46,572 bases of DNA from a virus. The stretch lies in IMG/VR virus record IMGVR_UViG_3300024520_000008, positions 1 to 46,572 of that record; one strand, 5' to 3'. The notes beneath the pieces were generated by a model. It was given only the letters and a program-made list of their open reading frames with translations, ran no database searches and was not told the DNA's origin. The stretch's first letter is position 1; every line of letters starts with the position of its first letter. Of the stretch, positions 4 through 46,572 are shown piece by piece. The translations under genes and the position numbers were made by a program.

Positions 4-32
4 TTTACATTATTAAACCTCGTGTGTATAAT
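4..32 (+). promoter_or_regulatory. sigma70-type promoter, copy 2
   Basis: TTTACA at 4-9 and TATAAT at 27-32 are separated by 17 nt, an almost ideal housekeeping promoter. It reads into the small repeat-protein gene at 69 and the 68-aa gene at 199. The same promoter with identical flanks occurs at 45860-45888, because a 219-bp segment is duplicated across the ends of the window. Confidence 0.75.
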
Positions 33-68
33 GTATTTATTAACTGTAACTGATTAAAAAGGTATAAA

Positions 69-197
69 ATGACTAAAATATTAACACTAGAAGAAGCAAG
101 AGAGAAAGCTATATATTGTTATTCATATGATAACGGGGATTATTCATATCAAACGGAAAATGGAGTTATGCACGAAGTAAAACTAAATGAGGTATAA
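69..197 (+). CDS. Minimal single-unit member of the NGDY repeat-protein family (42 aa)
   Basis: This short ORF starts at ATG 69 after a GGTATAAA leader and stops at 197. It encodes only the N-terminal cap shared by the family (MTKILTLEEAREKAI), one CYSYDNGDYSY hairpin segment, and the common C-terminal tail ending HEVKLNEV. It has no LIRNGVDLLEGK segment, so it shows what remains when all internal repeats are lost, or the ancestral minimal form. The first 45 nt of the ORF, with their promoter, are identical to the start of the gene at 45925. Function unknown. It lies one base upstream of the next gene and is probably cotranscribed with it. Confidence 0.7.
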   Translation: MTKILTLEEAREKAIYCYSYDNGDYSYQTENGVMHEVKLNEV

Positions 198-198
198 A

Positions 199-405
199 AT
201 GATGAAAGTTGAAGACGTTTCGAAATACGATATAAATTTAAATGCTATTTGGATAGAAAACGCTTTAAATAAAACTAAATCAAAACTAAGCGGAAGAATT
301 TTAAAAAAATCAAAATCTCGAGAAGGTTTATCTTTAATGGATGTGGAAGATTTGTTAAATGTTTACATAAGTAAAAAAAAAATGACAATCCGGAAAGACG
401 GATGA
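199..405 (+). CDS. Hypothetical 68-aa basic protein, intact parent of two truncated copies
   Basis: The start is ATG 199, preceded by GAGGTATAAA, one base after the stop of the repeat gene. An in-frame ATG twelve bases upstream is unlikely because it lies inside the previous gene. The product is lysine-rich and opens MMKVEDVSKYDINLN; no known domain is recognised. The same opening appears twice more, at 45793 and 46489, where the Tyr codon after VSK is a stop (TAC to TAA) and homology ends soon after. This copy is therefore the only complete one. A run of ten A near the 3' end and a small ATCCG/CGGAT hairpin around 388-403 follow the gene. Function unknown. Confidence 0.65.
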   Translation: MMKVEDVSKYDINLNAIWIENALNKTKSKLSGRILKKSKSREGLSLMDVEDLLNVYISKKKMTIRKDG

Positions 406-433
406 TAAATTTATTAATAATTAAGGTGTAAAA

Positions 434-766
434 ATGTCTTTAGAAAATCAACTTTCAGAATTAAACAAATCGATATCAGAATTGATAAAGGTTATATGTA
501 ACGACAATGTATGTTTGAAAAAATCTACGTTATCAAATAGCAACGGGGGCGCTAAAGATGGCGGTAAGGTTAAAGAGGAAATTAAGGTTAGGGTTGTTAG
601 CCACGAAGATATTCAAGAGTTGGCTAAGTTGAAAATGAAATTACCTAACGTGGATAAAAATGATATTAAAAAAATTGTCAGGGGGGTCAAGAAGGATGCT
701 CAAATTTCAGATTTAAACCCTGAAGAGTTAATTCTTACTTATGACAATATTTCAAAATTAAAATAA
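434..766 (+). CDS. Hypothetical 110-aa protein upstream of the DUF2800 nuclease
   Basis: ATG 434 follows AAGGTGTAAAA. Residues 1-20 look like a short amphipathic coiled coil (MSLENQLSELNKSISELIKV). A Gly/Lys-rich linker follows (about 36-50), then a charged mostly helical part. It ends two bases before the DUF2800 gene, so the two are almost certainly translated together. Small proteins in this position are common in phages that carry the DUF2800-DUF2815-polymerase module, but I do not recognise a named family. A role in recombination or replication is inferred from context only. Confidence 0.7.
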   Translation: MSLENQLSELNKSISELIKVICNDNVCLKKSTLSNSNGGAKDGGKVKEEIKVRVVSHEDIQELAKLKMKLPNVDKNDIKKIVRGVKKDAQISDLNPEELILTYDNISKLK

Positions 767-768
767 CC

Positions 769-1977
769 ATGGGTATCAACAGAGAGAAGGCCCATGCCAA
801 ACTGTCTGCTTCAGGATCGGAAAGATGGTTGAATTGTGCGGGGTCCGTAGCCGCAGAAGCGTCCATGTTAGATAAAGCTAGTGGGGCGGCGGAACTCGGA
901 ACCTTAGCTCATGAGTTGGCGGATATTTGTTTGAAAAATGAACAATGCACCGACGAATGGGTTAATAATGAAATATCTTGCGAATATAACGGTAAGTTGC
1001 TGAAAATAATTGTAGATAAAGATATGGGTAAGTTTGTTCAAGAGTATCTTGATTACGTCAGATCTCATGAATCTTCTGATTCTCAATTGTTTACAGAAGA
1101 GAGAGTTGATTTTTCCAATTTCGTACCGGACGGATTCGGAACATTGGACAGCGCAATTATAGATTACGAAACGGGAGTCTGTCACATATTCGATTTAAAA
1201 TATGGAATGACTGAGGTCGATGTTGAGGGTAACACTCAGGCAAGACTTTATTGTTTAGGATTACACAATGGATTGGGGTTCTTGGAAATAATTAAAAGTT
1301 TTAGAATTCATATTGTCCAACCTAGAAGATTTTCTATCACTTCTGAAGATATATGTTTAGAAGAGTTACTTGAATTTGGAGAATACGCATGTGGAAGGGC
1401 CTCTTTTGCGTTAAGTGAAAATGCTATACGTACTCCGGGAGAGAAACAATGTCATTGGTGCAAGGTTAGATTCACTTGCGTGGCGTTAAAGGAATTTACT
1501 GAAAAGATAATTTGTTCTGAGTTTGAAAACTTAGATGAAGGTTTGGTAGATTATTCCGCAGGTGGTGATAAATGTCTCGATGATCCACTCACACGACAAC
1601 AGACACACACTTACATATCTGACCAACAAGTGAAATTGATTTTAGACAACAAAAAATTGATTGAAAAATTTCTTAATGATATCCGAGAAAACACATTAGA
1701 GAGATTGCAAAACGGGGAGAAGATACCGGGTTACAAATTGGTAAGAAAGAGAGCTAATAGAAAATGGGTAAGCGATGCTGAAGATCACTTAGTTCGTAAA
1801 CTAGGTGAAGATGTGGCATATGTCGATAAATTGATAAGTATTACAGAAGCCTCCAAACTTCTTGATAAGGAATATATAGACGGTATCACTTATAAACCTG
1901 AAGGGGCTGTCGATATTGCCCCAGATAAGGATAAAAGAGATAGTGTCGCTAGTATAATCGATGAATTTGGTAGATAA
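769..1977 (+). CDS. DUF2800 family RecB/Cas4-like nuclease
   Basis: The 402-aa protein begins with the family signature HAKLSASGSERWLNC at residues 9-23. The fold expected for DUF2800 is the PD-(D/E)XK nuclease fold shared with RecB and Cas4. Candidate catalytic residues are His in GTLAHELA (about 48), Asp127 (GTLDSAI) and the D142-x-K144 pair in FDLKYG, followed by Gln in NTQARLY. Cys23 with Cys228, Cys231 and Cys237 (CHWCKVRFTC) has the spacing of a Cas4/AddB-type iron-sulphur cluster. Such proteins process DNA ends for phage replication and recombination. It is followed by the SSB-like gene and polymerase, the usual order. The start codon sits in a weak context (TAACCATGG) and probably depends on coupling to the preceding gene. 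Confidence 0.88.
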   Translation: MGINREKAHAKLSASGSERWLNCAGSVAAEASMLDKASGAAELGTLAHELADICLKNEQCTDEWVNNEISCEYNGKLLKIIVDKDMGKFVQEYLDYVRSHESSDSQLFTEERVDFSNFVPDGFGTLDSAIIDYETGVCHIFDLKYGMTEVDVEGNTQARLYCLGLHNGLGFLEIIKSFRIHIVQPRRFSITSEDICLEELLEFGEYACGRASFALSENAIRTPGEKQCHWCKVRFTCVALKEFTEKIICSEFENLDEGLVDYSAGGDKCLDDPLTRQQTHTYISDQQVKLILDNKKLIEKFLNDIRENTLERLQNGEKIPGYKLVRKRANRKWVSDAEDHLVRKLGEDVAYVDKLISITEASKLLDKEYIDGITYKPEGAVDIAPDKDKRDSVASIIDEFGR

Positions 1978-2011
1978 GTACGATCTTAAAAACGTTTTAT
2001 GAAAATTTATT

Positions 2012-2131
2012 TTATAAACGACAAATTTTAATTACATTTTAAATTTGTCGTTTATAATAAATATTGTTTGGGTTTGGCAACCCTAACAATTATTTTGCCA
2101 ACATAACTATTAATTTAAAATGTAATTAAAA
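2012..2131 (+). promoter_or_regulatory. Structured leader with interlocking inverted repeats before the SSB-like gene
   Basis: A perfect 17-bp inverted repeat pairs 2012-2028 with 2041-2057 around a 12-nt loop (2029-2040). A second perfect 20-bp inverted repeat pairs 2026-2045 with 2112-2131 and ends on the A of the start codon. The two share bases, so they are either alternatives or form an H-type pseudoknot in which the whole 12-nt loop pairs with 2117-2128, just before ATG 2131. A smaller hairpin (TTGGCAA 2074-2080 with TTGCCAA 2095-2101) lies between them. The arrangement could hide the translation start or end transcription early. Because the gene encodes a presumed ssDNA-binding protein, autoregulation is a natural hypothesis. 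A replication-origin role is the main alternative. Confidence 0.7.
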
Positions 2132-2652
2132 TGACTGAAAGAATCAAAATTGAAAACGTAATATTATCTTACCCTAACATTTTCCGTAAAGGGTTTTATG
2201 AAGGTGTAGAAAACAAAAAATACACAGCTACGTTAGTATTAGATAAATCTAATCCTGAGCATAAAGCTATTAAAAAGGTTATTGATAAACAAATCGAAAG
2301 TATTTATAAACAAACCAAGAACAAAAGGAGCGATTTTAAAGACGATAGATTCTGTATAAAAGATGGCTCTGACGAATTTGAAAATTCTTGGTTGATTAAA
2401 GTGGGCAACCCAAAACGCCCTAAAATCATCGATAGAGATAGAACACCTTTATTAGAAAGCGATGATAAGATTTATGCGGGTTGTTATGTTAACGCCATTA
2501 TAGATTTGTATTATTATGACAAGCAATATGGTAAATTCCTGTTATCCAATTTATACGGTGTGCAGTTCCAAGCTGACGGAGATAAATTAGGTAAAGAAAT
2601 TCCCGATGTGACAGAAGAGTTTGAAGATCTAGATTCCTTGGACGATATATAA
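2131..2652 (+). CDS. DUF2815 family single-stranded DNA-binding protein
   Basis: The 173-aa product opens with RIKIENVILSYPNIFRKG, the typical start of DUF2815 proteins, which are predicted OB-fold ssDNA-binding proteins of the phage T7 gp2.5 type. Lys-rich stretches and a GNPKRPKIIDRDR segment (about 92-104) fit nucleic-acid contact. The C-terminus is strongly acidic (EEFEDLDSLDDI), as in most phage and bacterial SSBs, where the tail recruits partners. It lies between the nuclease and the polymerase. The start ATG 2131 has no Shine-Dalgarno sequence and is embedded in the leader inverted repeat, which suggests controlled translation. Confidence 0.85.
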   Translation: MTERIKIENVILSYPNIFRKGFYEGVENKKYTATLVLDKSNPEHKAIKKVIDKQIESIYKQTKNKRSDFKDDRFCIKDGSDEFENSWLIKVGNPKRPKIIDRDRTPLLESDDKIYAGCYVNAIIDLYYYDKQYGKFLLSNLYGVQFQADGDKLGKEIPDVTEEFEDLDSLDDI

Positions 2653-2667
2653 GAATTTAAGTTATAC

Positions 2668-2702
2668 TCCATCAAGCCTTATTTTGAATATAGCTTGATG
2701 GA
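2668..2702 (+). terminator. Intergenic hairpin between SSB-like gene and polymerase
   Basis: TCCATCAAGC (2668-2677) pairs perfectly with GCTTGATGGA (2693-2702) around a 15-nt loop. Only a short T-rich stretch follows, so termination would be partial at best. It could instead be an RNA processing or stability element that sets different levels of SSB-like protein and polymerase. Confidence 0.4.
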
Positions 2703-2730
2703 TTTCAAATCATCAAAACATTAATTACTC

Positions 2731-4662
2731 ATGGAGAACTTAGTAGTTTTAGATTGTGAAGTTTACCCAAATTACACATTGTTCGCTTTTAAAAACATAG
2801 GCAGTAACAAGACTGTAACTATTGATATAAAGGGTGAGAATGAGACGTTGGACGAGATGTCATATAGAAAATTGAACAGTATTATAAATACTCGGACAAC
2901 TTTCGGATTTAATAGTAGAAATTACGACATACCGATTATATTATTTGCCTTAAAAAAAAAATCGGCTTCAGAAATTCATAAATTATCATCTTTTATAATA
3001 AACAACAATTCCCATGGTTGGCAAACTATGAAGAGGTTTGGTTTGGTATGGGATAAAAACAAAATAGATCATTTTGACATACAAGAGCCTGTACCAAATA
3101 TACGAGCAAGTTTAAAACTTTACGGCGGTAGAATGCACTCTAAAAGATTGCAAGATCTACCCATCAAACCAGATTCTATACTCACTGAAACGGAGATGGA
3201 AGAAATGGAGCGCTATTGTATTAATGATTTAGATACTACAATAGATCTTTATAAGAATATTAAGAATCTGATAGATCTTAGGATTGATATGTCAAAACAA
3301 TATGATCAAGATTTAAGAAGTAAATCAGATGCTCAAATTGCAGAAGCTTTGATAAAATCAGAACTATCTAAAACAAGCAGCGGACGTTTGAAAGCTCCTA
3401 AGGTGTCTGAGGATTCGACCTTCAGAGTTACAATTCCAGATTTCATAAAATTTGAAACCGAACAACTTCAAAATCTTTTAGAAATCATTAGGGGTTGTGA
3501 TTTCAAAGTTGACGACAAAGGTTCTGTTATACTCCCATCAGCTTTAGAAGAAAATAGAATTGAAATAGGTAGGTTCACTTACGAGATAGGTGTCGGCGGT
3601 TTACATTCAAATGAAAAATCTCAGTCTATAATACCTGAAGATGATGAAATATTAATTGATAAAGACGTAGCCTCATATTATCCGGCTATCATTATTAATA
3701 ACAATCTGTACCCCAAACATTTGGGTGAGAATTTCCTAGATGTTTATAAAAGTATTATGGTAACAAGACTTAAAGCTAAAAAGGAAAAAAACAAAATTGT
3801 TAATGAATCTTTAAAAATTGTTTTAAATGGCACTTACGGAAAATTGGGGGATGTATATTCTGTCATGTATTCGCCAGATTTATTAGTTACTGTCACTCTT
3901 ATTGGTCAACTATCTTTATTAATGCTCATAGAGAAGCTAGAGAGCCGAGGGATATCTATTGTATCAGCAAACACAGACGGCTTTGTTTCTTTAGTTAAAA
4001 ATAAACAACGTGGGTTATATTCCGTTATATGTTTCGACTGGGAATTAATAACAGGATTTGATCTAGAAGAAACAATATATACGGGTTTATTTTCAAGAGA
4101 TGTTAATAACTATTTTGCTATTACAGATCAAGGAATAAAAAGAAAAGGTGCGTTTTCCGCAAACTCTTTGAAAAAAAACCCCAGTGGGAATATTTGCGTA
4201 GATGCTGTTATAGAATATACAATCAATAAAACCCCTATCGAAAAAACAATATCAGAATGTAAGGATGTCACCAAATTTTTATTTGTGAGGACTGTTAACG
4301 GCGGGGCTACGTATAAGGGTGATTATTTGGGTCGTGTCGTAAGATGGATTTATTCTACTGAAGGTGAGACAATTTATTATAAACCGAAAATTGATTTAGA
4401 TTTAAAAGAAACTAGAAATAAGCTGATATACAAATATAATTTGGAAAAAGGTGATCCTATATTGAAAATACCTAAAAAGAAACTAAAAAACAATTATGAT
4501 GAATATAAAGGTTGTTTAGTTTTCAAAACTTCAACCCCGAAAGTTTCTAAATCAGAAGGTTCTAGGCCTATCATGGAAATAGAAGGGTTTCCGGAAGATA
4601 TTGATTATTCTAGATACATAGATGAATCATTAAAAATATTAACTGTTTTAGGATTAAAATGA
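2731..4662 (+). CDS. Family B DNA polymerase with 3'-5' proofreading exonuclease
   Basis: The 643-aa enzyme has an N-terminal DEDDy exonuclease: Exo I D8-x-E10 (LDCEVYP), Exo II N61 to D66 (FNSRNYD) and Exo III Y162-x3-D166 (YCIND). The polymerase domain shows motif A near residue 312 (DVASYYPAII), motif B near 366 (NGTYGKLG) and motif C at 413-417 (ANTDG). Motif C has Asn where the classical DTD has its first Asp, leaving one catalytic Asp416, a variant I believe occurs in some phage polymerases. It is compact, with no obvious extra domain, and copies the phage genome. It overlaps the next gene by 4 nt (ATGA). The start lacks a Shine-Dalgarno sequence. Confidence 0.9.
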   Translation: MENLVVLDCEVYPNYTLFAFKNIGSNKTVTIDIKGENETLDEMSYRKLNSIINTRTTFGFNSRNYDIPIILFALKKKSASEIHKLSSFIINNNSHGWQTMKRFGLVWDKNKIDHFDIQEPVPNIRASLKLYGGRMHSKRLQDLPIKPDSILTETEMEEMERYCINDLDTTIDLYKNIKNLIDLRIDMSKQYDQDLRSKSDAQIAEALIKSELSKTSSGRLKAPKVSEDSTFRVTIPDFIKFETEQLQNLLEIIRGCDFKVDDKGSVILPSALEENRIEIGRFTYEIGVGGLHSNEKSQSIIPEDDEILIDKDVASYYPAIIINNNLYPKHLGENFLDVYKSIMVTRLKAKKEKNKIVNESLKIVLNGTYGKLGDVYSVMYSPDLLVTVTLIGQLSLLMLIEKLESRGISIVSANTDGFVSLVKNKQRGLYSVICFDWELITGFDLEETIYTGLFSRDVNNYFAITDQGIKRKGAFSANSLKKNPSGNICVDAVIEYTINKTPIEKTISECKDVTKFLFVRTVNGGATYKGDYLGRVVRWIYSTEGETIYYKPKIDLDLKETRNKLIYKYNLEKGDPILKIPKKKLKNNYDEYKGCLVFKTSTPKVSKSEGSRPIMEIEGFPEDIDYSRYIDESLKILTVLGLK

Positions 4663-4907
4663 AAGATAAGATATTACATTTAAAAAATATAGGTAGGGCC
4701 ATATCTAATTATGGTGAAGATTGTTTTATTTCAAAATATTTAAGTTCAAGGGAAGCTAAACTCTTGATTTATTTATGGGCAAGGGACTTCGAATCTAAAA
4801 GGAATGAAGAGGAGGATGAGCTTGACGATATTATAAAATGTGGTGAAGAGAAACTGAAATTTCTAAAATTAGGTGACACTATACAGGTCTTAACCACCCA
4901 TCAATAA
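4659..4907 (+). CDS. Hypothetical 82-aa protein coupled to the polymerase
   Basis: The start codon overlaps the polymerase stop (ATGA), so translation is coupled. The protein is charged, with an acidic stretch (EEEDELDDIIKCGEEKL) in the second half. No signal peptide, membrane segment or known domain is visible. Small unnamed proteins often follow phage polymerases; a replication accessory role is only a guess. The gene ends about 10 bases before a new promoter. Confidence 0.6.
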   Translation: MKDKILHLKNIGRAISNYGEDCFISKYLSSREAKLLIYLWARDFESKRNEEEDELDDIIKCGEEKLKFLKLGDTIQVLTTHQ

Positions 4908-4915
4908 AAAAAGGC

Positions 4916-4944
4916 TTTACAAATAATAAAATCTATTTTATTAT
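4916..4944 (+). promoter_or_regulatory. sigma70-type promoter with overlapping AT dyad
   Basis: TTTACA (4916-4921), a 17-nt spacer and TATTAT (4939-4944) precede the gene at 4976. A perfect 10-bp dyad, ATAATAAAAT (4923-4932) with ATTTTATTAT (4935-4944), covers the spacer and the -10 box. It could be an operator. This promoter probably serves the operon from 4976 to about 11049. Confidence 0.6.
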
Positions 4945-4975
4945 CTATGAATTAACAATTCAACTAAGTAATAAT

Positions 4976-5374
4976 ATGATAAACTTAAAAGATAAAACAT
5001 TTAAAGAATCGGTAGACACCTGCGGTAAATTTTCCCAAGATGGAAGGGATCTTAAGATTCATGATATGGTAAGTTGTATAATAAATTATAAATCTTCTAC
5101 TTCTAAAGAAGATAAGTTGTTTTTTTTAATCAGCCTCATTTTATCTTCTTTAGAAGTAGTTAAGAAGGAAGGTTTGTTTGATATCTACGATGAAGCGATC
5201 ACAGTGGTTGCAAAGGGTAGACCCTCTTTAATGGATGTCGGTGATTGTGAAATAAAATCACATTCAGTAGATCAATACGAACGTGCGGTAGGGGAGTTAA
5301 GAAAATTGGTTGAGGGGGAATCTTCACAAATGTCATTATTTGATAGTTTTCCAGAGTTCGATCATGGTCAATGA
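4976..5374 (+). CDS. Hypothetical 132-aa early protein
   Basis: ATG 4976 lies about 30 nt downstream of a good promoter. The sequence is mostly helical, with a hydrophobic stretch at about 46-62 (KLFFLISLILSSLEVVKK) that is too polar at its ends to be called a membrane segment with confidence. The C-terminus contains SSQMSLFDSF, which resembles the QxxLF-type short motif used by proteins that bind the replicative sliding clamp; this is suggestive only. It overlaps the following DUF6378 gene by 11 nt. No family is recognised. Confidence 0.65.
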   Translation: MINLKDKTFKESVDTCGKFSQDGRDLKIHDMVSCIINYKSSTSKEDKLFFLISLILSSLEVVKKEGLFDIYDEAITVVAKGRPSLMDVGDCEIKSHSVDQYERAVGELRKLVEGESSQMSLFDSFPEFDHGQ

Positions 5375-5648
5375 TATAAAAAAGACTCTGGAAGACAGGG
5401 GGTCACTTTATGGGAAATTTACAGATAACGCCGAAGTTTGTCAGAAGCTTCTTGAGGTTATTGAGAAAGCCCCAAGTTATTCAAAATTAAGCAGATTGCA
5501 TAAAGAATCTTACCATATGATCTTTCATAAGATTGCTAGATCTGTTTGCGGAGATCCTAATCATATAGATAATATCCATGATATAATAGGTTTCGCAAAA
5601 CTACTTGAGGATTTTCTTATGGGTAAAGGGGATAGAGGTAACCAATGA
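5364..5648 (+). CDS. DUF6378 (MazG-like) family protein
   Basis: I place the start at ATG 5364 rather than an earlier codon, because the product then begins MVNDIKKTLEDRGSLYG, the normal start of the family. The 94-aa all-helical protein has the conserved block KIARSVCGDPNHIDNIHDI in its second half, with the His/Asp residues expected for DUF6378. The family is distantly similar to MazG nucleotide pyrophosphohydrolases and is common beside phage replication genes. A role in nucleotide-pool management is plausible but unproven. It overlaps the gene before by 11 nt and the repeat-protein gene after by 4 nt (ATGA). Confidence 0.8.
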   Translation: MVNDIKKTLEDRGSLYGKFTDNAEVCQKLLEVIEKAPSYSKLSRLHKESYHMIFHKIARSVCGDPNHIDNIHDIIGFAKLLEDFLMGKGDRGNQ

Positions 5649-6100
5649 CTGAAATCTTAACACTAGACGAAGCAAGAGAGAAAGCTATATTTTGTTACTC
5701 ATATAATAACGGTGATTATGAGTATCAAACAGAAGATTACTTTTGGCATCTTCTAAGAAACGGTGTTGATCTTCTAGAAGGTAAGGATGCTATAGTTTGT
5801 TGGTCATTTGGTAACAGGGATCATAGCTATAAATTAAAAGGGGATAGGTTTTACCACCTTATAAGAAACGGTGTTGATCTTCTAGAAGGTAAGGGGGCTA
5901 TAGGCTGTTGGTCATATGATAACGGGGATTATGAGTATAAAACAGAAGATAAATTTTACCATCTTATAAGAAACGGTGTTGATCTTCTAAAAGGTAAGAA
6001 AGCTATAGATTGTTGGTCATTTGATAACGGGGATTATTCATATGAAACGGAAAATGGAGTTGTACACGAAGTAAAATTAAATGAGGTAACCAATGACTAA
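5645..6100 (+). CDS. NGDY repeat protein, cap plus 3 units (151 aa)
   Basis: The protein has an N-terminal cap (MTEILTLDEAREKAI), then three copies of the LIRNGVDLLEGK..AI.C.SY.NGDY.Y unit, then a HEVKLNEV tail. The tail is extended by three residues because the usual stop is shifted (GTAACC instead of GTATAA), so it overlaps the next gene by 8 nt. The variable residues around the unit Cys are F/Y (cap), V/W, G/W and D/W. The first unit carries the longer KLKGD linker, the others KTED. A 108-bp block (5810-5917) is identical except for one base to 44747-44854 in the other cluster. No signal peptide or membrane segment. Function unknown. Confidence 0.75.
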   Translation: MTEILTLDEAREKAIFCYSYNNGDYEYQTEDYFWHLLRNGVDLLEGKDAIVCWSFGNRDHSYKLKGDRFYHLIRNGVDLLEGKGAIGCWSYDNGDYEYKTEDKFYHLIRNGVDLLKGKKAIDCWSFDNGDYSYETENGVVHEVKLNEVTND

Positions 6101-6647
6101 GATACTAACACTAGAAGAGATAAGAGAGGGCGTAGGTTATTTTTTTGAGTATTACAACGGGGATTATGAGTATATAACAGAAGATGAATTTTTCCACCTT
6201 ATAAGAAACGGTGTTGATCTTCTAGAAGGTAAGAATGCTATAAATTGCCATTCATTTGATAACGGGGATTATTGGTATAAATTAAAAGGGGATAGGTTTT
6301 ACAATCTTATAAGAAACGGTGTGGATCTTCTAGAAGGTAAGGATGCTATAGATTGTTATTCATATGATAACGATGATTATGAGTATAAATTAAAAGGGGA
6401 AAAGTTTTGGCATTTTATAAGAAACGGTGTTGATCTTCTAAAAGGTAAGAATGCTATAATTTGCCATTCATATGATAACGGGGATTATTCATATAAAACA
6501 GAAGATAGATTTTACCACCTTATAAGAAACGGTGTTGATCTTCTAGAAGGTAAGAGAGCTATACGGTGTTGGTCATTTGATAACGGGGATTATAAGTATC
6601 AAACAGAAGATGAAGTTTGGCACGAAGTAAAACTAAATGAGGTGTAA
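6093..6647 (+). CDS. NGDY repeat protein, cap plus 4 units (184 aa)
   Basis: The start is ATG 6093, overlapping the previous gene by 8 nt. The cap differs from the commonest form: after ILTLEEIREGV comes GYFFEYYNGDYEY with no Cys, and the gene at 7319 has almost the same cap. Four repeat units follow, two with the KLKGD-type linker. Variable residue pairs around the Cys are N/H, D/Y, I/H and R/W. The tail is HEVKLNEV, with the stop immediately before the ankyrin-fusion gene. It is probably cotranscribed with the whole cluster. Function unknown. Confidence 0.75.
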   Translation: MTKILTLEEIREGVGYFFEYYNGDYEYITEDEFFHLIRNGVDLLEGKNAINCHSFDNGDYWYKLKGDRFYNLIRNGVDLLEGKDAIDCYSYDNDDYEYKLKGEKFWHFIRNGVDLLKGKNAIICHSYDNGDYSYKTEDRFYHLIRNGVDLLEGKRAIRCWSFDNGDYKYQTEDEVWHEVKLNEV

Positions 6648-6648
6648 A

Positions 6649-7317
6649 ATGAATAAATTATATGAAGCTTGTAAAACAGGAGATCTTAAGGAAGTTACGT
6701 TATTAGCTGAAAGTGGGTGTGATATTCGCAATGAAGATGACCGCCCTTTAATGTGGGCGGCAGAAAACGGTAATATTGAAGTGGTTAAGTTTTTAGTAGA
6801 TAAGGGGGCCGATGTCCATACTAATGAAGGTTATGCCCTAACTTTGGCGGCACGGGGCGGGCATATTGAAACTGTGCGTTATTTTGTAAAAGAGGGGGTT
6901 AAGATATCCGAATATACCTTAAAAATGGCGGCAAGAAACGAGCAGATCGAAGTGCTAAGGTTATTAATTATGAATGATGATAATAGAATCTTAACACTAG
7001 AAGAAGCAAGAGAGAAAGCAGTTTGTTTTTATAAGTATGATAACGGGGATTATAAGTATCAAACAGAAGATAGATTTTGGAATCTTATAAGAAACGGTGT
7101 TGATATTTTAAAAGGTAAGAGAGCTATATATTGTCACTCATACGCTAACGGTGATTATGAGTATAAAACAGAAGATGGATTTTACCATCTTATAAGAAAC
7201 GGTGTTGATCTTCTAAAAGGTAAGAAAGCTATAGATTGTTGGTCATTTGATAACGGGGATTATAAGTATGAAACAGAAGATGAATTTTTGCACAAAGTGG
7301 AATTAAATGAGGTATAA
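6649..7317 (+). CDS. Ankyrin-repeat protein fused to NGDY repeats (222 aa)
   Basis: ATG 6649 lies one base after the previous stop, behind GAGGTGTAAA. Residues 1 to about 107 form three to four ankyrin repeats, recognisable by LMWAAENGNIEVVKFLVDKG and LTLAARGGHIETVRYFVKEG. The sequence then enters the family cap (RILTLEEAREKAV), two NGDY units and a HKVELNEV tail. An internal Met sits just before the cap, where the stand-alone family members start, so the fusion looks like an ankyrin gene joined in frame to a repeat gene. The ankyrin part has visibly higher GC than its surroundings, suggesting separate acquisition. Ankyrin domains bind proteins, so the fusion may link NGDY repeats to a protein target; that is inference. 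Confidence 0.8.
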   Translation: MNKLYEACKTGDLKEVTLLAESGCDIRNEDDRPLMWAAENGNIEVVKFLVDKGADVHTNEGYALTLAARGGHIETVRYFVKEGVKISEYTLKMAARNEQIEVLRLLIMNDDNRILTLEEAREKAVCFYKYDNGDYKYQTEDRFWNLIRNGVDILKGKRAIYCHSYANGDYEYKTEDGFYHLIRNGVDLLKGKKAIDCWSFDNGDYKYETEDEFLHKVELNEV

Positions 7318-7318
7318 A

Positions 7319-8488
7319 ATGACTAAAATACTAACACTAGAAGAGGCAAGAGAGGGCGTAGGTTATTTTTTTGAGTATCACAACGGTGATTATAAGTATA
7401 AAACAGAAGATGGATTTTGCCATCTTATAAGAAACGGTGTGGATCTTCTAGAAGGTAAGAGAGCTAGATATTGTTACTTATATACTAACGGGGATTATTC
7501 ATATAAAACAGAAGATGAAGTTTACCATCTTATAAGAAACGGTGTGGATCTTCTAGAAGGTAAGAGAGCTATAGATTGTCACTCATATACTAACGGTGAT
7601 TATAAGTATAAAACAGAAGATGGATTTTACCATCTTATAAGGAACGGTGTTGATCTTCTAGAAGGTAAGAAGGCTATAATTTGTTACTCATATGATAACG
7701 GGGATTATAAGTATCAAACAGAAGATAAATTTTACCACCTTATAAAAAACGGCGTTGATCTTCTAGAGGGTAAGGAAGCTATAGATTGTAGGTCATATCT
7801 TAACGGGGATTATTCATATAAAACAGAAGATAGATTTTGGCATCTTATAAGAAACGGTGTTGATCTTCTAAAAGGTAAGAGGGCTATAGATTGTTACTTA
7901 TATCTTAACGGGGATTATTCATATAAAACAGAAGATAGATTTTGGCATCTTATAAGAAACGGTGTTGATCTTCTAGAAGGTAAGAATGCTATATTTTGTT
8001 ACTCATATAATAACAGGGATTATAAGTATAAAACAGAAGATGAAGTTTGCCATCTTATAAGAAACGGTGTTGATCTTCTAGAAGGTAAAAGAGCTATAAA
8101 TTGTAGGTCATATGATAACGGGGATTATGAGTATATAGCAGAAGATAAATTTTACCATCTTATAAGAAACGGTGTTGATCTTCTAGAAGGTAAAAGAGCT
8201 ATATATCGTTGGTCATATGATAACGGTGATTATGAGTATCAAACAGAAGATGAATTTTACCATCTTATAAGAAACGGTGTTGATCTTCTAAAAGGTAAGA
8301 AAGCTATAGATTGTTGGTCATTTGATAACGGTGATTATAAGTATCAAACAGAAGATGGATTTTGGAATCTTATAAGAAACGGTGTTGATCTTCTAGAAGG
8401 TAAGAGAGCTATAGATTGTCACTCATATACTGACGGTGATTATAAGTATAAAACAGAAGATGGATTTTGGCATCTTATAAGAAACTAA
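7319..8488 (+). CDS. Largest NGDY repeat protein, cap plus 10 units, truncated end (389 aa)
   Basis: ATG 7319 follows GGTATAAA. After the Cys-less cap (EGVGYFFEYHNGDYKY) come ten complete units with variable residue pairs Y/Y, D/H, I/Y, D/R, D/Y, F/Y, N/R, Y/W, D/W and D/H. In the eighth unit the Cys is replaced by Arg. The protein ends abruptly after LIRN: the reading frame runs AGAAAC into TAAATGAGG, the normal gene-end sequence, but out of frame. This is a junction formed by recombination at the shared AAAC, giving an early stop and no HEVKLNEV tail. All units use the KTED-type linker (IAED once). Function unknown. Confidence 0.75.
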   Translation: MTKILTLEEAREGVGYFFEYHNGDYKYKTEDGFCHLIRNGVDLLEGKRARYCYLYTNGDYSYKTEDEVYHLIRNGVDLLEGKRAIDCHSYTNGDYKYKTEDGFYHLIRNGVDLLEGKKAIICYSYDNGDYKYQTEDKFYHLIKNGVDLLEGKEAIDCRSYLNGDYSYKTEDRFWHLIRNGVDLLKGKRAIDCYLYLNGDYSYKTEDRFWHLIRNGVDLLEGKNAIFCYSYNNRDYKYKTEDEVCHLIRNGVDLLEGKRAINCRSYDNGDYEYIAEDKFYHLIRNGVDLLEGKRAIYRWSYDNGDYEYQTEDEFYHLIRNGVDLLKGKKAIDCWSFDNGDYKYQTEDGFWNLIRNGVDLLEGKRAIDCHSYTDGDYKYKTEDGFWHLIRN

Positions 8489-8500
8489 ATGAGGTATAAA

Positions 8501-9280
8501 ATGACTAAGATACTAACACTAGAAGAAGCAAGAGAGAAAGCTATAATTTGTTACTCATATACTAACGGGGATTATTCATATAAAACAGAAGATGGATTTT
8601 GGCATATTGTAAGAAACGGTGTTGATCTTCTAGAAGGTAAGAGAGCTATATATCGTTGGTCATTTGATAACGGTGATTATTCATATAAAACAGAAGATGA
8701 AGTTTACCATCTTATAAGAAACGGTGTGGATCTTCTAGAAGGTAAGAGAGCTATAGATTGTCACTCATATACTAACGGTGATTATAAGTATAAAACAGAA
8801 GATGGATTTTGCCATCTTATAAGGAACGGTGTTGATCTTCTAGAAGGTAAGAATGCTATAATTTGTTACTCATATGGAAACGGTGGTTATGAGTATAAAA
8901 CAGAAGATGGAGTTTGCCACCTTATAAGAAACGGTGTTGATCTTCTAGAAGGTAAAAGAGCTATATATTGTTGGTCATTTGATAACGGTGATTATAAGTA
9001 TCAAACAGAAGATGAATTTTTCCATCTTATAAGAAACGGTGTTGATCTTCTAAAAGGTAAGGATGCTATAAATTGTTATTCATATGATAACGGGGATTAT
9101 GAGTATAAAACAGAAGATAAATTTTACCATCTTATAAGAAACGGTGTTGATCTTCTAGAAGGTAAGAACGCTATATTTTGTTACTCATATAATAACAGGG
9201 ATTATAAGTATAAAACAGAAGATGGAGTTGTTCACGAAGTAAAATTAAATGGGGTGTACAATGAGAGAATCGATCGTTGA
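8501..9280 (+). CDS. NGDY repeat protein, cap plus 6 units, extended tail (259 aa)
   Basis: The start is ATG 8501 (MTKILTLEEAREKAI); an in-frame ATG 12 bases upstream lies inside the leader and is not favoured. Six units follow, with variable pairs Y/W (Arg in place of Cys), D/H, I/Y, Y/W, N/Y and F/Y. The usual terminal stop is lost: GGGGTGTAC replaces GAGGTATAA, so the protein runs on through VYNERIDR and overlaps the VRR-NUC gene by 20 nt. The unit with AIFCYSYNNRDYKYKTED is nearly identical in DNA to one in the previous gene. Function unknown. Confidence 0.75.
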   Translation: MTKILTLEEAREKAIICYSYTNGDYSYKTEDGFWHIVRNGVDLLEGKRAIYRWSFDNGDYSYKTEDEVYHLIRNGVDLLEGKRAIDCHSYTNGDYKYKTEDGFCHLIRNGVDLLEGKNAIICYSYGNGGYEYKTEDGVCHLIRNGVDLLEGKRAIYCWSFDNGDYKYQTEDEFFHLIRNGVDLLKGKDAINCYSYDNGDYEYKTEDKFYHLIRNGVDLLEGKNAIFCYSYNNRDYKYKTEDGVVHEVKLNGVYNERIDR

Positions 9281-13733: not shown

Positions 13734-16472
13734 TTAAGCATTTGCTATTGTTGTTGTCGTTCCAGAGGTACCACGGTATTTTAAAGCCCCAGATTCACAA
13801 TATAATATCCCCCCTCCCGTTGGGTTGGAGGTTGGGGCTATTGTTCTATTGGCTATAAATAAAGTTTTTACACCTCCACCGAAACTTGCACCATTAAAGC
13901 CAAAGTTTCCGTTTTTCAATATAATGATTGCATCACTTCTTGAGCCTGTTGCCGTACCGTTACCTATCGAAAAAAGCCTATCCGTAGATCCCCAGCCCCC
14001 CGGTGTGACTGGAGTATAAGACGTATTCCATCTACCCATCACAGTCTCGTAAGTGGATATAGCACTCACATTATTTCCTATTGCTGTTGCACTACCTTTG
14101 CTAGCTGTCGTTGTGTCGCCCATTGCTATTGAGGCATAGCCACTGGCTGTATTAGTGCGCCCCATTGCAATTGTATAATCCGAACCGCTAGCTACATTCT
14201 GATAGCCAGCAGCAAAAGAACGTTGTCCGCTGACTGTGTTTCCGTCACCAATTGCACCAGAAAAAGGATTGCTTATAGTATTCCAGCGGCCAGCAGCAAA
14301 AGAATGATTCCAAGTTATATCATTTTGATAGCCAGCAGCAAAAGAGTATTGCGAGGTAATCGTATTTAAAGCACCTAAAGCTATTGATTGTGCGCCTGAC
14401 ACTTCGTTATTTCTGCCGATAGTTGCACTATACCAAGCGGAAATTTCGTTTTGATAGCCAGCGGAAAAGCAATAATTTGCCGCTGAGGTTATTATGTTTT
14501 CTCTTCCTCCAACTAAGGCATAAGCCCCATCAACTGCGGTGTTGTTATAACCAAATACTGCTGAATATTGAGCAGTTGAGCCTAAAGTATTATTGCGGCC
14601 AAATGTACAGGCGTCTGGGCTATTTATTGTATTAGTGCGCCCGCCAGCAACCGACCAATTGTGATTAACAACATTTTGCGAACCCATAGCCAAGGACTCC
14701 CCGCCAACGGTGTTGTTATAACCTAGCGCAACCCCCCTACTTCCAGCGTTAATAATATTTGATTCCCCCAGTGCATAGGCTTTATTGACAGTTAGGTTGT
14801 TTGATATTCCGATTGCCGCCGATGAAGAACCGCTGACTGTGTTGTTGTACCCCATTGCTATTGAATTATCACCGCCTACAATGTTCAGCCTTCCTATCGC
14901 TCCCGCCCAATTGCTAGTAATAGTGTTATCTGAACCAATGGCCGCCGCTTCACCAGTAACAGTATTTCTAAACCCTAATGCTGAACCACTAGCCCCACTT
15001 ACATTATTTAAATATCCTATTGCTGTGGAATATTGTGCAGTTACGGTATTTTCTGTACCCAAAGCAGAAGCTTGATTTGATACAACATTATCTCTTCCCA
15101 AAGCGATAGCATGGCTAGCACTAACGGTAGAATTAAACCCTAAAACCACCGAGTCACTACCGCTTGCGGTATTATTACGACCCATTGCTATTGAATAGTT
15201 CCCTATATTCACATCATCCCATTGGGTACTATTTACATTACCTGCCCTAAAAGCTGATTTTCTAGGATAGAAAAACATCCTGCTACCTGACCCAGAAATA
15301 CTAAGGGTAGGACTTGACAAGAAAGTGCCTTTATTTAATAAATTGCCCTCTTCCACATGCACAAGTTCTGTTGGGGTGCTTATTCCAATTCCAGTGTTGC
15401 CACCCTTAAGTATGGTTAAAGCATCGGACTTGGCCCCCGAATGTTCCCCGTTCCCAATTGTAAATAAACGGTCTGCAGGATCCCATGTTGTCGTTTGCAG
15501 GGGTATATAGTCAGTGTTAAATTTACCTACAACCACCTCATACGCTGACTTTGCGACAATACTTGCACCAAGGGTTGAAGCAGATAAACCACTTGCCGTA
15601 GAGTCGAACCCCAGTGCCACTGCCGCTTGAGAGCTGGCAGTGTTTTTAATCCCCATTGCTACAGCACCAGTCCCGCTAGCCTCATTGTCCTCACCCGTCG
15701 CTACAGAATAATAGCCTATATTACTATCATCCCATTGATCACCATCTACATTTCCAGCTCTAAAAGCTGCCTTCCGTGGATACCACATTAACCTAGTCCC
15801 TGCACCAGAAACCCCTATAATTGGACTGGTTCCAGAGCCTATACCTAATATATTTCCGTCATCAACCGTAAGACTTGTTAAAGAAGCAGAATTAAAAATT
15901 ACATCCGCTGTAATGTCGATATTCTGGATAGTGTTTATTTTACCACTAGTAAATTTTATATTATCCACATCTATGTTAGCACTTATCTCACCTGTAACAC
16001 TATTGTAATTTATACCATCCCCACCGTTAAGATCTTCGGGGCTAAGTAATATAGCGTCCATGTTTTCAAGCATCTTAGCTTGTAGGGCTAAGGGTGGCTG
16101 TGCATAATCAGTAGGGATACTGGTACTCAGTATTTTATACCATATCCTAATATTTGTAGCGGGATTAGGTATTTTATTGATTGTTATATTTGCCCCAGTA
16201 TGGGAACTTACGGAAATTAATGTGCCAAAAAATTTACCGGCAGAAGTGTATACATATTCTAAAGGATTATCCCCTGAAAATATTGCAGCGCTACCACCGG
16301 TTATTTTGGATATATCAAATGAGGCGTCATCACCATTCTCGTTAGCTGTTAGAATTATAGAAGTGGTTAATACCGATCCTGCTGCAAAATCCTGATACCC
16401 CCAGAGGAATGCTCCCGGAAAAGTGTTTGCCGATTCCAAACTATCAGCAAATATATTATTAAGAATACTCAT
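13734..16472 (-). CDS. Trimeric tail fibre with YadA-head-like repeats (912 aa)
   Basis: From about residue 270 to 330, and more extensively from 440 to 800, the protein is made of short repeats of the SxAIGxxNxVxG type, as found in the left-handed parallel beta-roll heads of YadA/Hia trimeric adhesins. Two copies of a larger module occur: an entry block (YPRKSAFRAGNV... and YPRKAAFRAGNV...) and an exit block (DRLFSIGNG... and DRLFTIGNG... followed by ILK.GN.G). The last 50 residues resemble a phage fibre end (GGGILYCESGALKYRG). The first 150 residues probably attach to the baseplate. It is likely the main receptor-binding or long fibre. The start overlaps the endolysin stop (ATGA) and has a good AAAGG ribosome-binding site. 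Confidence 0.85.
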   Translation of the reverse strand: MSILNNIFADSLESANTFPGAFLWGYQDFAAGSVLTTSIILTANENGDDASFDISKITGGSAAIFSGDNPLEYVYTSAGKFFGTLISVSSHTGANITINKIPNPATNIRIWYKILSTSIPTDYAQPPLALQAKMLENMDAILLSPEDLNGGDGINYNSVTGEISANIDVDNIKFTSGKINTIQNIDITADVIFNSASLTSLTVDDGNILGIGSGTSPIIGVSGAGTRLMWYPRKAAFRAGNVDGDQWDDSNIGYYSVATGEDNEASGTGAVAMGIKNTASSQAAVALGFDSTASGLSASTLGASIVAKSAYEVVVGKFNTDYIPLQTTTWDPADRLFTIGNGEHSGAKSDALTILKGGNTGIGISTPTELVHVEEGNLLNKGTFLSSPTLSISGSGSRMFFYPRKSAFRAGNVNSTQWDDVNIGNYSIAMGRNNTASGSDSVVLGFNSTVSASHAIALGRDNVVSNQASALGTENTVTAQYSTAIGYLNNVSGASGSALGFRNTVTGEAAAIGSDNTITSNWAGAIGRLNIVGGDNSIAMGYNNTVSGSSSAAIGISNNLTVNKAYALGESNIINAGSRGVALGYNNTVGGESLAMGSQNVVNHNWSVAGGRTNTINSPDACTFGRNNTLGSTAQYSAVFGYNNTAVDGAYALVGGRENIITSAANYCFSAGYQNEISAWYSATIGRNNEVSGAQSIALGALNTITSQYSFAAGYQNDITWNHSFAAGRWNTISNPFSGAIGDGNTVSGQRSFAAGYQNVASGSDYTIAMGRTNTASGYASIAMGDTTTASKGSATAIGNNVSAISTYETVMGRWNTSYTPVTPGGWGSTDRLFSIGNGTATGSRSDAIIILKNGNFGFNGASFGGGVKTLFIANRTIAPTSNPTGGGILYCESGALKYRGTSGTTTTIANA

Positions 16473-44686: not shown

Positions 44687-45115
44687 ATGAATAAAATATT
44701 AACATTAGAAGAAGCAAGAGATAGAGCAGAAGACTACCATGAGTATGGTAACAGGGATCATAGCTATAAATTAAAAGGGGATAGGTTTTACCACCTTATA
44801 AGAAACGGTGTTGATCTTCTAGAAGGTAAGGGAGCTATAGGCTGTTGGTCATATACTAACGAGGATTACGCATATTTAACAGAAGATTACTTTTATCATC
44901 TTATAAGAAACGGTGTGGATCTTCTAGAAGGTAAGAGAGCTATGTGGTGTGATTCATATGCTAACGGCGATTATTCATATAAAACAGAAGATGGACTTTG
45001 GCATCTTATAATAAACGGCATTGATGTTTTAGAAGGGAAGAGAGCTATAGCTTGTCGTTCATATGGTGACGGGGATTATGAATATAAAACTGAAGATGAA
45101 GTTTACCATTTATAA
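44687..45115 (+). CDS. NGDY repeat protein, cap plus 3 units, truncated end (142 aa)
   Basis: ATG 44687 follows GGTATAAA. After a cap (NKILTLEEARDRAEDYHEY, no Cys) come three units with variable pairs G/W, W/D and A/R, and a fourth that stops after YHL. The third unit is more diverged than most (LIINGIDVLEGK). The end resembles that of the gene at 7319: the reading frame breaks off inside a unit at TACCATTTATAA and the normal leader GGTATAAA of the next gene follows, so a deletion has removed the rest. The cap and first unit share 108 bp, with one difference, with 5810-5917 in cluster 1. Function unknown. Confidence 0.72.
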   Translation: MNKILTLEEARDRAEDYHEYGNRDHSYKLKGDRFYHLIRNGVDLLEGKGAIGCWSYTNEDYAYLTEDYFYHLIRNGVDLLEGKRAMWCDSYANGDYSYKTEDGLWHLIINGIDVLEGKRAIACRSYGDGDYEYKTEDEVYHL

Positions 45116-45132: not shown

Positions 45133-45822
45133 ATGAATAAAATCTTAACATTAGAAGAAGCAAGAAAGAACGAAAGTTATTTTCTTGAGTATCACAACGG
45201 TGATTATGAGTATAAATTAAAAGGGGGGCATTTTTTCCATCTTATAAGAAACGGTGTTGATTTTCTAGAAGGTAAGAGAGCTATAGATTGTTGGTCATTT
45301 GATAACGGGGATTATTGGTATAAATTAAAAGGGGATAGGTTTTGCCATCTTATAAGAAACGGTGTTGATCTTCTAGAAGGTAAGAGAGCTATACGGTGTT
45401 GGTCATATAATAACGGGGATTATGAGTATCGAACGGAAGATGACGTTTTACATCTTATAAAAAACGGTGTTGATCTTCTAGAAGGTAAGAATGCTATATA
45501 TTGTTATTCATATGATAACGATGATTACGCATATTCAACAGAAGATTACTTTTATCATCTTATAAGAAACGGTGTTGATGTTTTAGAAGGTAAGAGAGCT
45601 ATGCGCTGTTTTTCATATAATAACGGGGATTATTCATATACAACGGAAGATGAATTTTACCATCTTATAAGAAACGGTGTTGATCTTCTAAAAGGTAAGA
45701 GGGCTATAGGTTGTTACTCATGTGATAACGGAGATTATTCATATGAAACAGAAGATGGAGTTATGCACGAAGTAAAATTAAAAAGGTGTAAAATGATGAA
45801 AGTTAAAGACGTTTCGAAATAA
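45133..45822 (+). CDS. NGDY repeat protein, cap plus 5 units, fused to a truncated gene remnant (229 aa)
   Basis: ATG 45133 follows AAAAGGTATAAA. The cap (ILTLEEARKNESYFLEY) has no Cys. Five units follow, with variable pairs D/W, R/W, Y/Y, R/F and G/Y; the first two carry the KLKGG or KLKGD linker in front of them. The usual tail HEVKL is not followed by NEV and a stop. It continues KRCK through the leader of the next gene and then in frame through MMKVKDVSK, the truncated copy of the 68-aa protein. It therefore ends with nine residues of another gene. Function unknown. Confidence 0.72.
   Translation: MNKILTLEEARKNESYFLEYHNGDYEYKLKGGHFFHLIRNGVDFLEGKRAIDCWSFDNGDYWYKLKGDRFCHLIRNGVDLLEGKRAIRCWSYNNGDYEYRTEDDVLHLIKNGVDLLEGKNAIYCYSYDNDDYAYSTEDYFYHLIRNGVDVLEGKRAMRCFSYNNGDYSYTTEDEFYHLIRNGVDLLKGKRAIGCYSCDNGDYSYETEDGVMHEVKLKRCKMMKVKDVSK
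45793..45822 (+). pseudogene. Truncated copy of the 68-aa gene (remnant 1)
   Basis: ATGATGAAAGTT and following encode MMKVKDVSK and then a stop in place of the Tyr codon of the intact gene at 199. Similarity continues for about 13 bases (GATATAAATTTAA) and then ends. The frame is also read through from the repeat gene upstream. Confidence 0.7.
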
Positions 45823-45859
45823 GATATAAATTTAATTTCACATATATTAAAATTAAATC

Positions 45860-45888
45860 TTTACATTATTAAACCTCGTGTGTATAAT
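45860..45888 (+). promoter_or_regulatory. sigma70-type promoter, copy 1
   Basis: TTTACA (45860-45865), 17 nt and TATAAT (45883-45888), identical to the promoter at 4-32. It precedes the repeat gene at 45925. Confidence 0.75.
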
Positions 45889-45924: not shown

Positions 45925-46518
45925 ATGACTAAAATATTAACACTAGAAGAAGCAAGAGAGAAAGCTATAGATTTTTATTCATATGATAACGGGGATTATT
46001 GGTATAAATTAAAAGGGGATAGGTTTTACCATCTTATAAGAAACGGTGTGGATCTTCTAGAAGGTAAGGATGCTATAGATTGTCACTTATTAACACTAGA
46101 AGAAGCAAGAGAGAAAGCTATATATTGTTATTCATATGATAACGGGGATTATTGGTATAAATTAAAAGGGGATAGGTTTTGGCATCTTATAAGAAACGGT
46201 GTGGATGTTTTAGAAGGTAAGGATGCTATAAATTGTTATTCATATACTAACGGGGATTATGAGTATGAAACAGAAAATGGAGTTTACCATCTTATAAGAA
46301 ACGGTGTTGATCTTCTAGTAGGTAGGAATGCTATATATTGTTATTCATATGATAACGGGGATTATGAATATCACGTTCATCTTCTAGAAGGTAAGAGAGC
46401 TGTATATCTTTGTTCATTTGATAACGGGCATTGTAAGTATGAAATAGAAGATGGAGTTATGCACGAAGTAAAATTAAAAAGGTGTAAAATGATGAAAGTT
46501 AAAGACGTTTCGAAATAA
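45925..46518 (+). CDS. Rearranged NGDY repeat protein with a second internal cap (197 aa)
   Basis: ATG 45925 lies 37 bases after a good -10 box. The gene starts with the cap MTKILTLEEAREKAI, has one unit, then, in the middle of the next hairpin, restarts with LLTLEEAREKAIYCYSY, a second cap fused in frame. Two further units and a partial one follow; in the last a segment is missing (YEYHVHLLEGKRAVY lacks FYHLIRNGVD), and several conserved residues are changed (LLVGRN, NGHCKY). The end continues through KRCK into MMKVKDVSK. These features suggest a decaying or actively rearranging copy. Function unknown. Confidence 0.68.
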   Translation: MTKILTLEEAREKAIDFYSYDNGDYWYKLKGDRFYHLIRNGVDLLEGKDAIDCHLLTLEEAREKAIYCYSYDNGDYWYKLKGDRFWHLIRNGVDVLEGKDAINCYSYTNGDYEYETENGVYHLIRNGVDLLVGRNAIYCYSYDNGDYEYHVHLLEGKRAVYLCSFDNGHCKYEIEDGVMHEVKLKRCKMMKVKDVSK

Positions 46519-46572
46519 GATATAAATTTAATTTCACATATATTAAAATTAAATCTTTACATTATTAAACCT
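46447..46572 (+). repeat. Long exact direct repeat, copy 2 (continues into 1-113)
   Basis: These 126 bases are identical to 45751-45876. The last 20 equal bases 1-20, so the repeat continues without a break at base 21 if the molecule is circular. Confidence 0.9.
46489..46518 (+). pseudogene. Truncated copy of the 68-aa gene (remnant 2)
   Basis: A second identical MMKVKDVSK remnant with the same stop, inside the 219-bp direct repeat. Confidence 0.7.

Follow-up and report, generated by a model that had tools for sequence, protein, structure and literature searches.

Diversifying repeats and the phage family

Rapidly diversifying repeats are already known from immune and allorecognition receptors. 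The het-d/het-e genes of Podospora evolve in concert, vary in copy number, and have a few diversified columns in each repeat of propeller type, a combination that underlies recognition (PMC1805685); spontaneous repeat rearrangements alter specificity (PMC2873952). A repeat family of unrelated sequence with a similar evolutionary signature, mostly lacking an effector domain, was found on the phage side in the IMG/VR virus record IMGVR_UViG_3300024520_000008, which was analyzed over its whole length of 46,572 bp and is referred to as the window. It comprises 36 LIRNGVDLLEGK units of 35 to 36 amino acids (aa) in nine open reading frames (ORFs), which take up ∼5.6 kb or 12% of the genome. Terminase, portal, head protease, tail sheath, and tape-measure genes were present; this head and tail gene set, tail sheath included, indicates a contractile-tailed phage.

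Like the HNWD (HET-D/HET-E) WD40 repeats of Podospora anserina, the phage family combines a near-fixed scaffold and concerted evolution within and between paralogues with varying repeat number and few diversified positions. The HNWD proteins, however, are fungal STAND receptors with effector and NTPase domains, and their WD40 repeats are ∼42 aa long with four selected positions, whereas the phage proteins consist of 35-aa units unrelated in sequence and mostly carry no other domain. No WD40 motif was matched in Pfam up to an E value of 10 (window proteins) or 1 (relatives), and for NTPase and effector domains Pfam returned only ankyrin repeats, in one member. The phage family resembles HNWD by anatomy but, judged by sequence, length, and domain architecture, is not a member.

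The WRAP propeller (PMC6805158, PMC9218822) also has highly similar tandem blades from recent amplification and a propeller-like local fold, and its 2- to 5-blade fragments form homo-oligomers (PMC6805158), a way for short fragments to complete a ring. WRAP differs in that its blades are practically identical, with no hypervariable set, and its 14 blades make two 7-bladed rings; the phage unit is shorter, and Pfam finds no WD40 in it. WG_beta_rep (PF14903), a lead from background knowledge, is likewise a beta-rich repeat of 35 positions. Homology was not found: there was no Pfam match and hhalign gave probabilities of 0.1 to 0.2% against six WG proteins; a six-frame search of the record found no WG_beta_rep, but no control genome matched either. 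LasAI/LasAII (HyvI/HyvII) of Liberibacter prophages, the only relevant case from text searches for hypervariable phage repeat proteins, are prophage-borne, strain-variable tandem repeats (PMC4249863, PMC3708911). They are described as autotransporters or effectors, and no such match was among the tblastn results in the phage collection at E values of ≤10 (no direct comparison was made). A diversity-generating retroelement was also rejected as a source of variation, since no RVT_1 was found in the record (control matches in three genomes) and scaffold adenines were conserved.

An original prediction, made from the sequence alone, had described the repeat as unrecognized, and no profile match to a characterized family has since emerged. 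Pfam and NCBIfam gave no match over cut-off and PDB sequences gave none; phage and plasmid collections held no credible relative, GTDB genome contigs held none in a peptide-pattern scan with few short peptides, and the motif LIRNGVDLLEGK was absent from the literature searched. PHROG whole-protein matches (phrog_26308 and phrog_3732, about 3e−10) were dismissed as repeat artifacts because scrambled controls of the same periodicity scored equally well or better; reversed and unit-permuted versions of the same protein reached E values down to 2e−17 with no passing stretch. The PADLOC match to Csx21 (8e−14) had no passing stretch either. Scrambled controls gave no Csx21, a two-unit consensus matched it with an E value of 0.015 over 25 residues only, and the link is unsupported. 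A match to Vibrio phage 1.031.O (E value, 2) was discarded, as a profile search of that record found nothing. An ankyrin profile matched only the N-terminal part of gene A3, and the new unit is all-beta in models.

Fixed scaffold and hypervariable columns

The unit, GKxAIxCxSYxNGDYxYxTEDxFxHLIRNGVDLLE, consists of a fixed scaffold and variable columns 3, 6, 8, 11, 16, 18, 22, and 24. In a codon table built from the 27 full units of the window, these eight columns each held 5 to 10 different residues, and ten other columns were invariant. The same columns varied in a second phage, the 44-kb record 3300031566_000102 (G002), most of all columns 6, 8, 11, 16, and 24, and column entropies of the two phages were correlated (Spearman, 0.65), a value matched by none of 27 circular shifts. 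Scaffold codons differed between the window and G002 (Ser TCA against AGT, Ala GCT against GCG), so the pattern is replicated in an unrelated phage despite its other synonymous codons. As these codons are uniform within each phage and different between them, the scaffolds are homogenized within each phage (concerted evolution). Unit exchange between paralogues is supported by this uniformity together with long exact stretches across genes and clusters. What bears most on function went unnoticed in the original prediction: hypervariable columns, fusion to ankyrin repeats, the junction that closes the circle, and variation between strains.

Diversification of the variable columns is well supported. 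None of 400 neutral simulations with matched synonymous diversity, run on either coalescent or star phylogenies, produced their mean of 6.5 residues per column. When diversity was set higher, a star phylogeny attained 6.5, but never jointly with the observed number of invariant columns. The ratio of nonsynonymous to synonymous diversity (piN/piS) in the scaffold was 0.49 in the window and 0.30 in G002. Positive selection in the strict sense is likely, falling short of proof because the simulations were run without recombination or uneven mutation.

The units are arranged in two clusters with a tandem period of 105 bp (TRF), and all nine ORFs are open. A recount reproduced the nine ORFs of the original prediction and its unit counts of 3, 4, 2, 10, and 6 in cluster A and 3, 5, and 3 in cluster B, as assembled. 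The near identity of DNA that it reported applies to the scaffold codons, which are nearly fixed; full units had a mean identity of ∼83% and differed on average at 17 of 105 bases. Each repeat protein starts with the cap LTLEEAREKAI, which substitutes for VDLLEGKRAI, and most end with the tail HEVKLNEV or close variants, substituting for HLIRNGVDLL. The cap-repeat-tail composition first proposed has exceptions in the N-terminal half of A3 and in the ends of A4 and B1, which lack the usual tail. The supposed minimal member at 69 to 197 does have cap, motif, and tail, but contains no complete unit and is contiguous with cluster B.

AlphaFold2, run with an alignment of family members, predicted all-beta units and a helical cap for A1 and A4, with strands in each unit near columns 4 to 9, 15 to 19, and 24 to 28, plus a two-residue strand near 31 to 32. 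This regular predicted beta structure supports the original prediction, which had looked for a regular predicted solenoid or propeller. DSSP analysis of the A1 model showed variable columns 6, 8, 16, and 18 alternating in strands 1 and 2 with conserved columns 5, 7, 9, 15, 17, and 19, the pattern expected of strands with one exposed and one buried side. The best Foldseek matches in the PDB were beta-propellers, with designed ones of 40-aa blades near the top. TM-scores of A1 against propellers were 0.4 to 0.55; A4 superposed poorly on whole rings (TMq of at most 0.32), and VIA Z was at most 7.5 for A1 and 10.3 for A4 (root mean square deviation for A4, 5 to 8 Å). On these models, the units were read as propeller-like blades; no structure-library match showed this repeat as such, which excludes nothing.

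Array turnover and occurrence among phages

A record from another metagenome, L009, starts with window positions 46446 to 46572 and continues directly with 21 to 6088, with zero mismatches. This joins the end of the window to its start at 100% identity; cluster B and ORF 69-197 are therefore parts of a single cluster in a genome that is either circular or circularly permuted. Starting at window position 6089, L009 carries a different repeat gene, at most ∼86 to 88% alike to the window over comparable lengths. Identity over ∼6.2 kb followed by divergence means that the two strains differ in the array. Both records are metagenome assemblies of 105-bp repeats, and the presence of an identical first gene in the second assembly speaks against the earlier concern that the array might be an assembly artifact. 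L009, G002, and a further relative, G003, all have contigs that end inside repeat arrays; in metagenomes, the family is thus likely to be incompletely assembled and its members under-counted.

Exact matches between genes, of 136 bp (A4/A5) and 87 bp (A1/B1), point to recent exchange or duplication. Larger blocks were also repeated: a 127-bp exact repeat was found at 45750 and 46446, and a 113-bp exact repeat carries TTTACA-17-TATAAT, indicating that whole promoter-gene blocks were duplicated. The 113-bp repeat places the same promoter-like block upstream of ORF 69-197, across the circular junction; the total of promoter-like sites in the window was not above that of shuffled sequence. Truncated copies of the start of ORF 187-405 (KMMKVKDVSK, then a stop) occur after B2 and B3, at 45780 to 45830 and 46476 to 46522, and the duplicated block thus consists of promoter, repeat gene, and head of the next gene. 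Within B3, an in-frame 153-bp tandem duplication puts a cap in the middle of the protein.

Besides L009, relatives were found by viral-contig scans in four viral records and confirmed by profile searches: G002, 3300032286_001553 (G003, 49 kb), 3300027917_000294, and 3300008255_001397. Unit number varied among these homologues in other phages, as the original prediction had anticipated. The G002 array sits between an opposite-strand HTH_3 protein gene and the following operon, and in the relative at L018 an unknown C-terminal part is fused to the repeat. At L017 (positions 1 to 813), repeat units run into a YqaJ recombinase domain in a possible fusion, in a frame that starts at the contig end. 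The shortest relative (L010, 82 to 842; 73 aa) has two diverged units and lies directly before a Fic/DOC-family gene.

Related phages had no arrays at the corresponding sites. Pseudoalteromonas phage AL, with a polymerase 42% identical, has the same order in its replication module (primase, regulator, three genes, polymerase, nuclease, and helicase) and no array at either site. The polymerase of the viral record L044 is 58% identical; there, a 218-aa gene and a deaminase-like gene occupy the interval from the 112-aa gene homologue to the nuclease. Since their sites are empty or otherwise filled in related phages, the arrays resemble accessory cargo carried in the early region; in all, the repeats were not found in five relatives, some of which are fragments. 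The array-free L044 carries two other short repetitive genes (8164 to 8574 and 2688 to 3095), one Cys-rich (C..C..) and one solenoid-like and N/I/D-rich. Coordinates of the repeat genes in the window are listed in Table 1.

Table 1. Repeat genes of the window and associated promoter-like site (pLDDT, predicted local distance difference test; pTM, predicted template modeling score; both from AlphaFold2)
Feature	Position	Strand	Description
Minimal repeat gene 'a'	69..197	+	Cap, one SYDNGDYSY motif, tail; no complete LIRNGVDLLEGK unit
Repeat gene A1	5645..6100	+	3 units; pLDDT 95.8, pTM 0.86
Repeat gene A2	6093..6647	+	4 units; divergence of L009 from 6089, immediately before the A2 start codon
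Gene A3	6637..7317	+	N-terminal half ankyrin repeats (Ank_2 E value, 3e−20), fused to 2 new-repeat units
Repeat gene A4	7307..8488	+	10 units; ends HLIRN; pLDDT 91.6, pTM 0.73
Repeat gene A5	8489..9280	+	6 units; 136-bp exact stretch in common with A4
Repeat gene B1	44687..45115	+	3 units; ends YHL, usual tail absent
Repeat gene B2	45133..45822	+	5 units; continues into truncated copy of ORF 187-405 start
Promoter-like TTTACA-17-TATAAT	45860..45888	+	Upstream of B3; 11 of 12 consensus matches
Repeat gene B3	45925..46518	+	3 units and 1 degenerate

Placement and possible use of the repeat proteins

Cluster A is flanked by the 112-aa gene on one side and a weak VRR-NUC match on the other; cluster B comes after a Cro/C1-type helix-turn-helix gene, and ORF 69-197 is the first gene of the early operon. 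Such an early accessory position points toward a target inside the infected cell, and the variable surface suggests a variable target such as defense proteins or rival elements. The surface-interaction role considered in the original prediction fits poorly with genes of the early/replication module, and no secretion signal was seen by eye in the repeat proteins of the window (no signal-peptide program was used). Anti-defense, another role it considered, remains a candidate, and counter-defense would be the likeliest use of the proteins.

The best explanation, to which a probability of about 0.5 is given, is an early, intracellular, accessory family of modular repeat binders that evolves by unit exchange and diversification. 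Each 35-aa unit would fold as a small antiparallel beta sheet, similar to one blade of a beta-propeller. A propeller-like body would be a stack of 2.5 to 10.5 units, with the helical cap first and the short tail last. Purifying selection and exchange between units would keep the scaffold constant. Diversity would be maintained at eight columns of each unit, including four that share one side of strands 1 and 2, and each gene may in this way display its own mosaic surface. This repertoire could be renewed quickly as units and genes are duplicated, deleted, and reshuffled. The variable face would bind proteins, presumably variable proteins of the host or of rival mobile elements and most likely parts of defense systems.

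Several points weigh against this explanation. Nonsynonymous diversity in the variable columns was 3.7 times the synonymous diversity elsewhere in the window and 1.6 times in G002 (bootstrap, 1.1 to 3.0; columns chosen in the window), but the ratio of 3.7 is not exceptional under a neutral coalescent with the best columns picked afterwards. After this control, the piN/piS ratio was dropped as proof of selection, and the case for strict positive selection depends on the residue-count test and the G002 replicate. The exposed face is deduced from strand periodicity, and the number and order of units, which rest on metagenome assembly of 105-bp repeats, are approximate. On these models, the array proteins may or may not form closed rings; varying unit number argues against one fixed ring, and the assembly of WRAP fragments as homo-oligomers weighs against that argument.

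If the modular binder explanation holds, the family would point to a general strategy by which viruses keep up with variable intracellular targets, and it offers a small, naturally diversified binding scaffold that is predicted to fold confidently. A fuller parallel to the fungal HNWD receptors can be proposed tentatively, in which fixed scaffolds, selected hypervariable faces, and recombination between genes would give the phage a self-diversifying recognition repertoire of counter-defense binders directed against variable host immune proteins.

The repeats might instead serve as a replication or recombination scaffold that docks phage DNA-processing enzymes, its copy number varying without any contest with the host. 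Both clusters do lie within the early/replication module, cluster A directly before the VRR-NUC-like nuclease and a helicase, and G003 has one array in a single open frame with a YqaJ recombinase and another before ThyX. However, related phages replicate without arrays, and a scaffold needs neither hypervariable columns nor strain variation, and this explanation appears unlikely. Amplification for gene dosage, exemplified by the gene-accordion of T4 segmental amplification against toxIN (PMC9391042), would require more of one protein, with differences between copies incidental. The tandem duplication of genes and units, with the promoter duplicated along with the gene, is what such a process would leave, but in two phages the differences fall mainly into the same columns, and they exceed neutral expectation, which makes pure dosage quite unlikely. 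It is improbable that slippage and recombination have enlarged a dispensable, nonfunctional gene under relaxed surface constraint: the truncated tails and internal B3 cap resemble recombination scars, and arrays are absent from related phages, but no ORF is interrupted, two phages have scaffold piN/piS values well below 1, residue diversity in the variable columns exceeds neutral simulations, and five distinct phages that differ in codons have kept the family. In some endosymbiont phages, ankyrin proteins are thought to act on the eukaryote, and such a host-effector role in a phage of an endosymbiont or parasite would suit the ankyrin repeats of A3 and the hydrophobic ends seen by eye in the L023 relative, but it is very improbable given the early replication module around the arrays and a polymerase (∼42% identity) and terminase (∼33%) nearest to those of phages of free-living marine gammaproteobacteria.

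Two further genes were noted outside the arrays. The terminase-like gene of the G002 phage (L014, 4977 to 6392) appears by eye to bear an intein (CCYSPETKVLTANYQWKQIKDLEIGEKI ... SHNS). In the window, the minus-strand gene at 13734 to 16472 encodes a 912-aa tail-fiber-like protein that contains YadA head repeats and matches an ice-binding beta roll.

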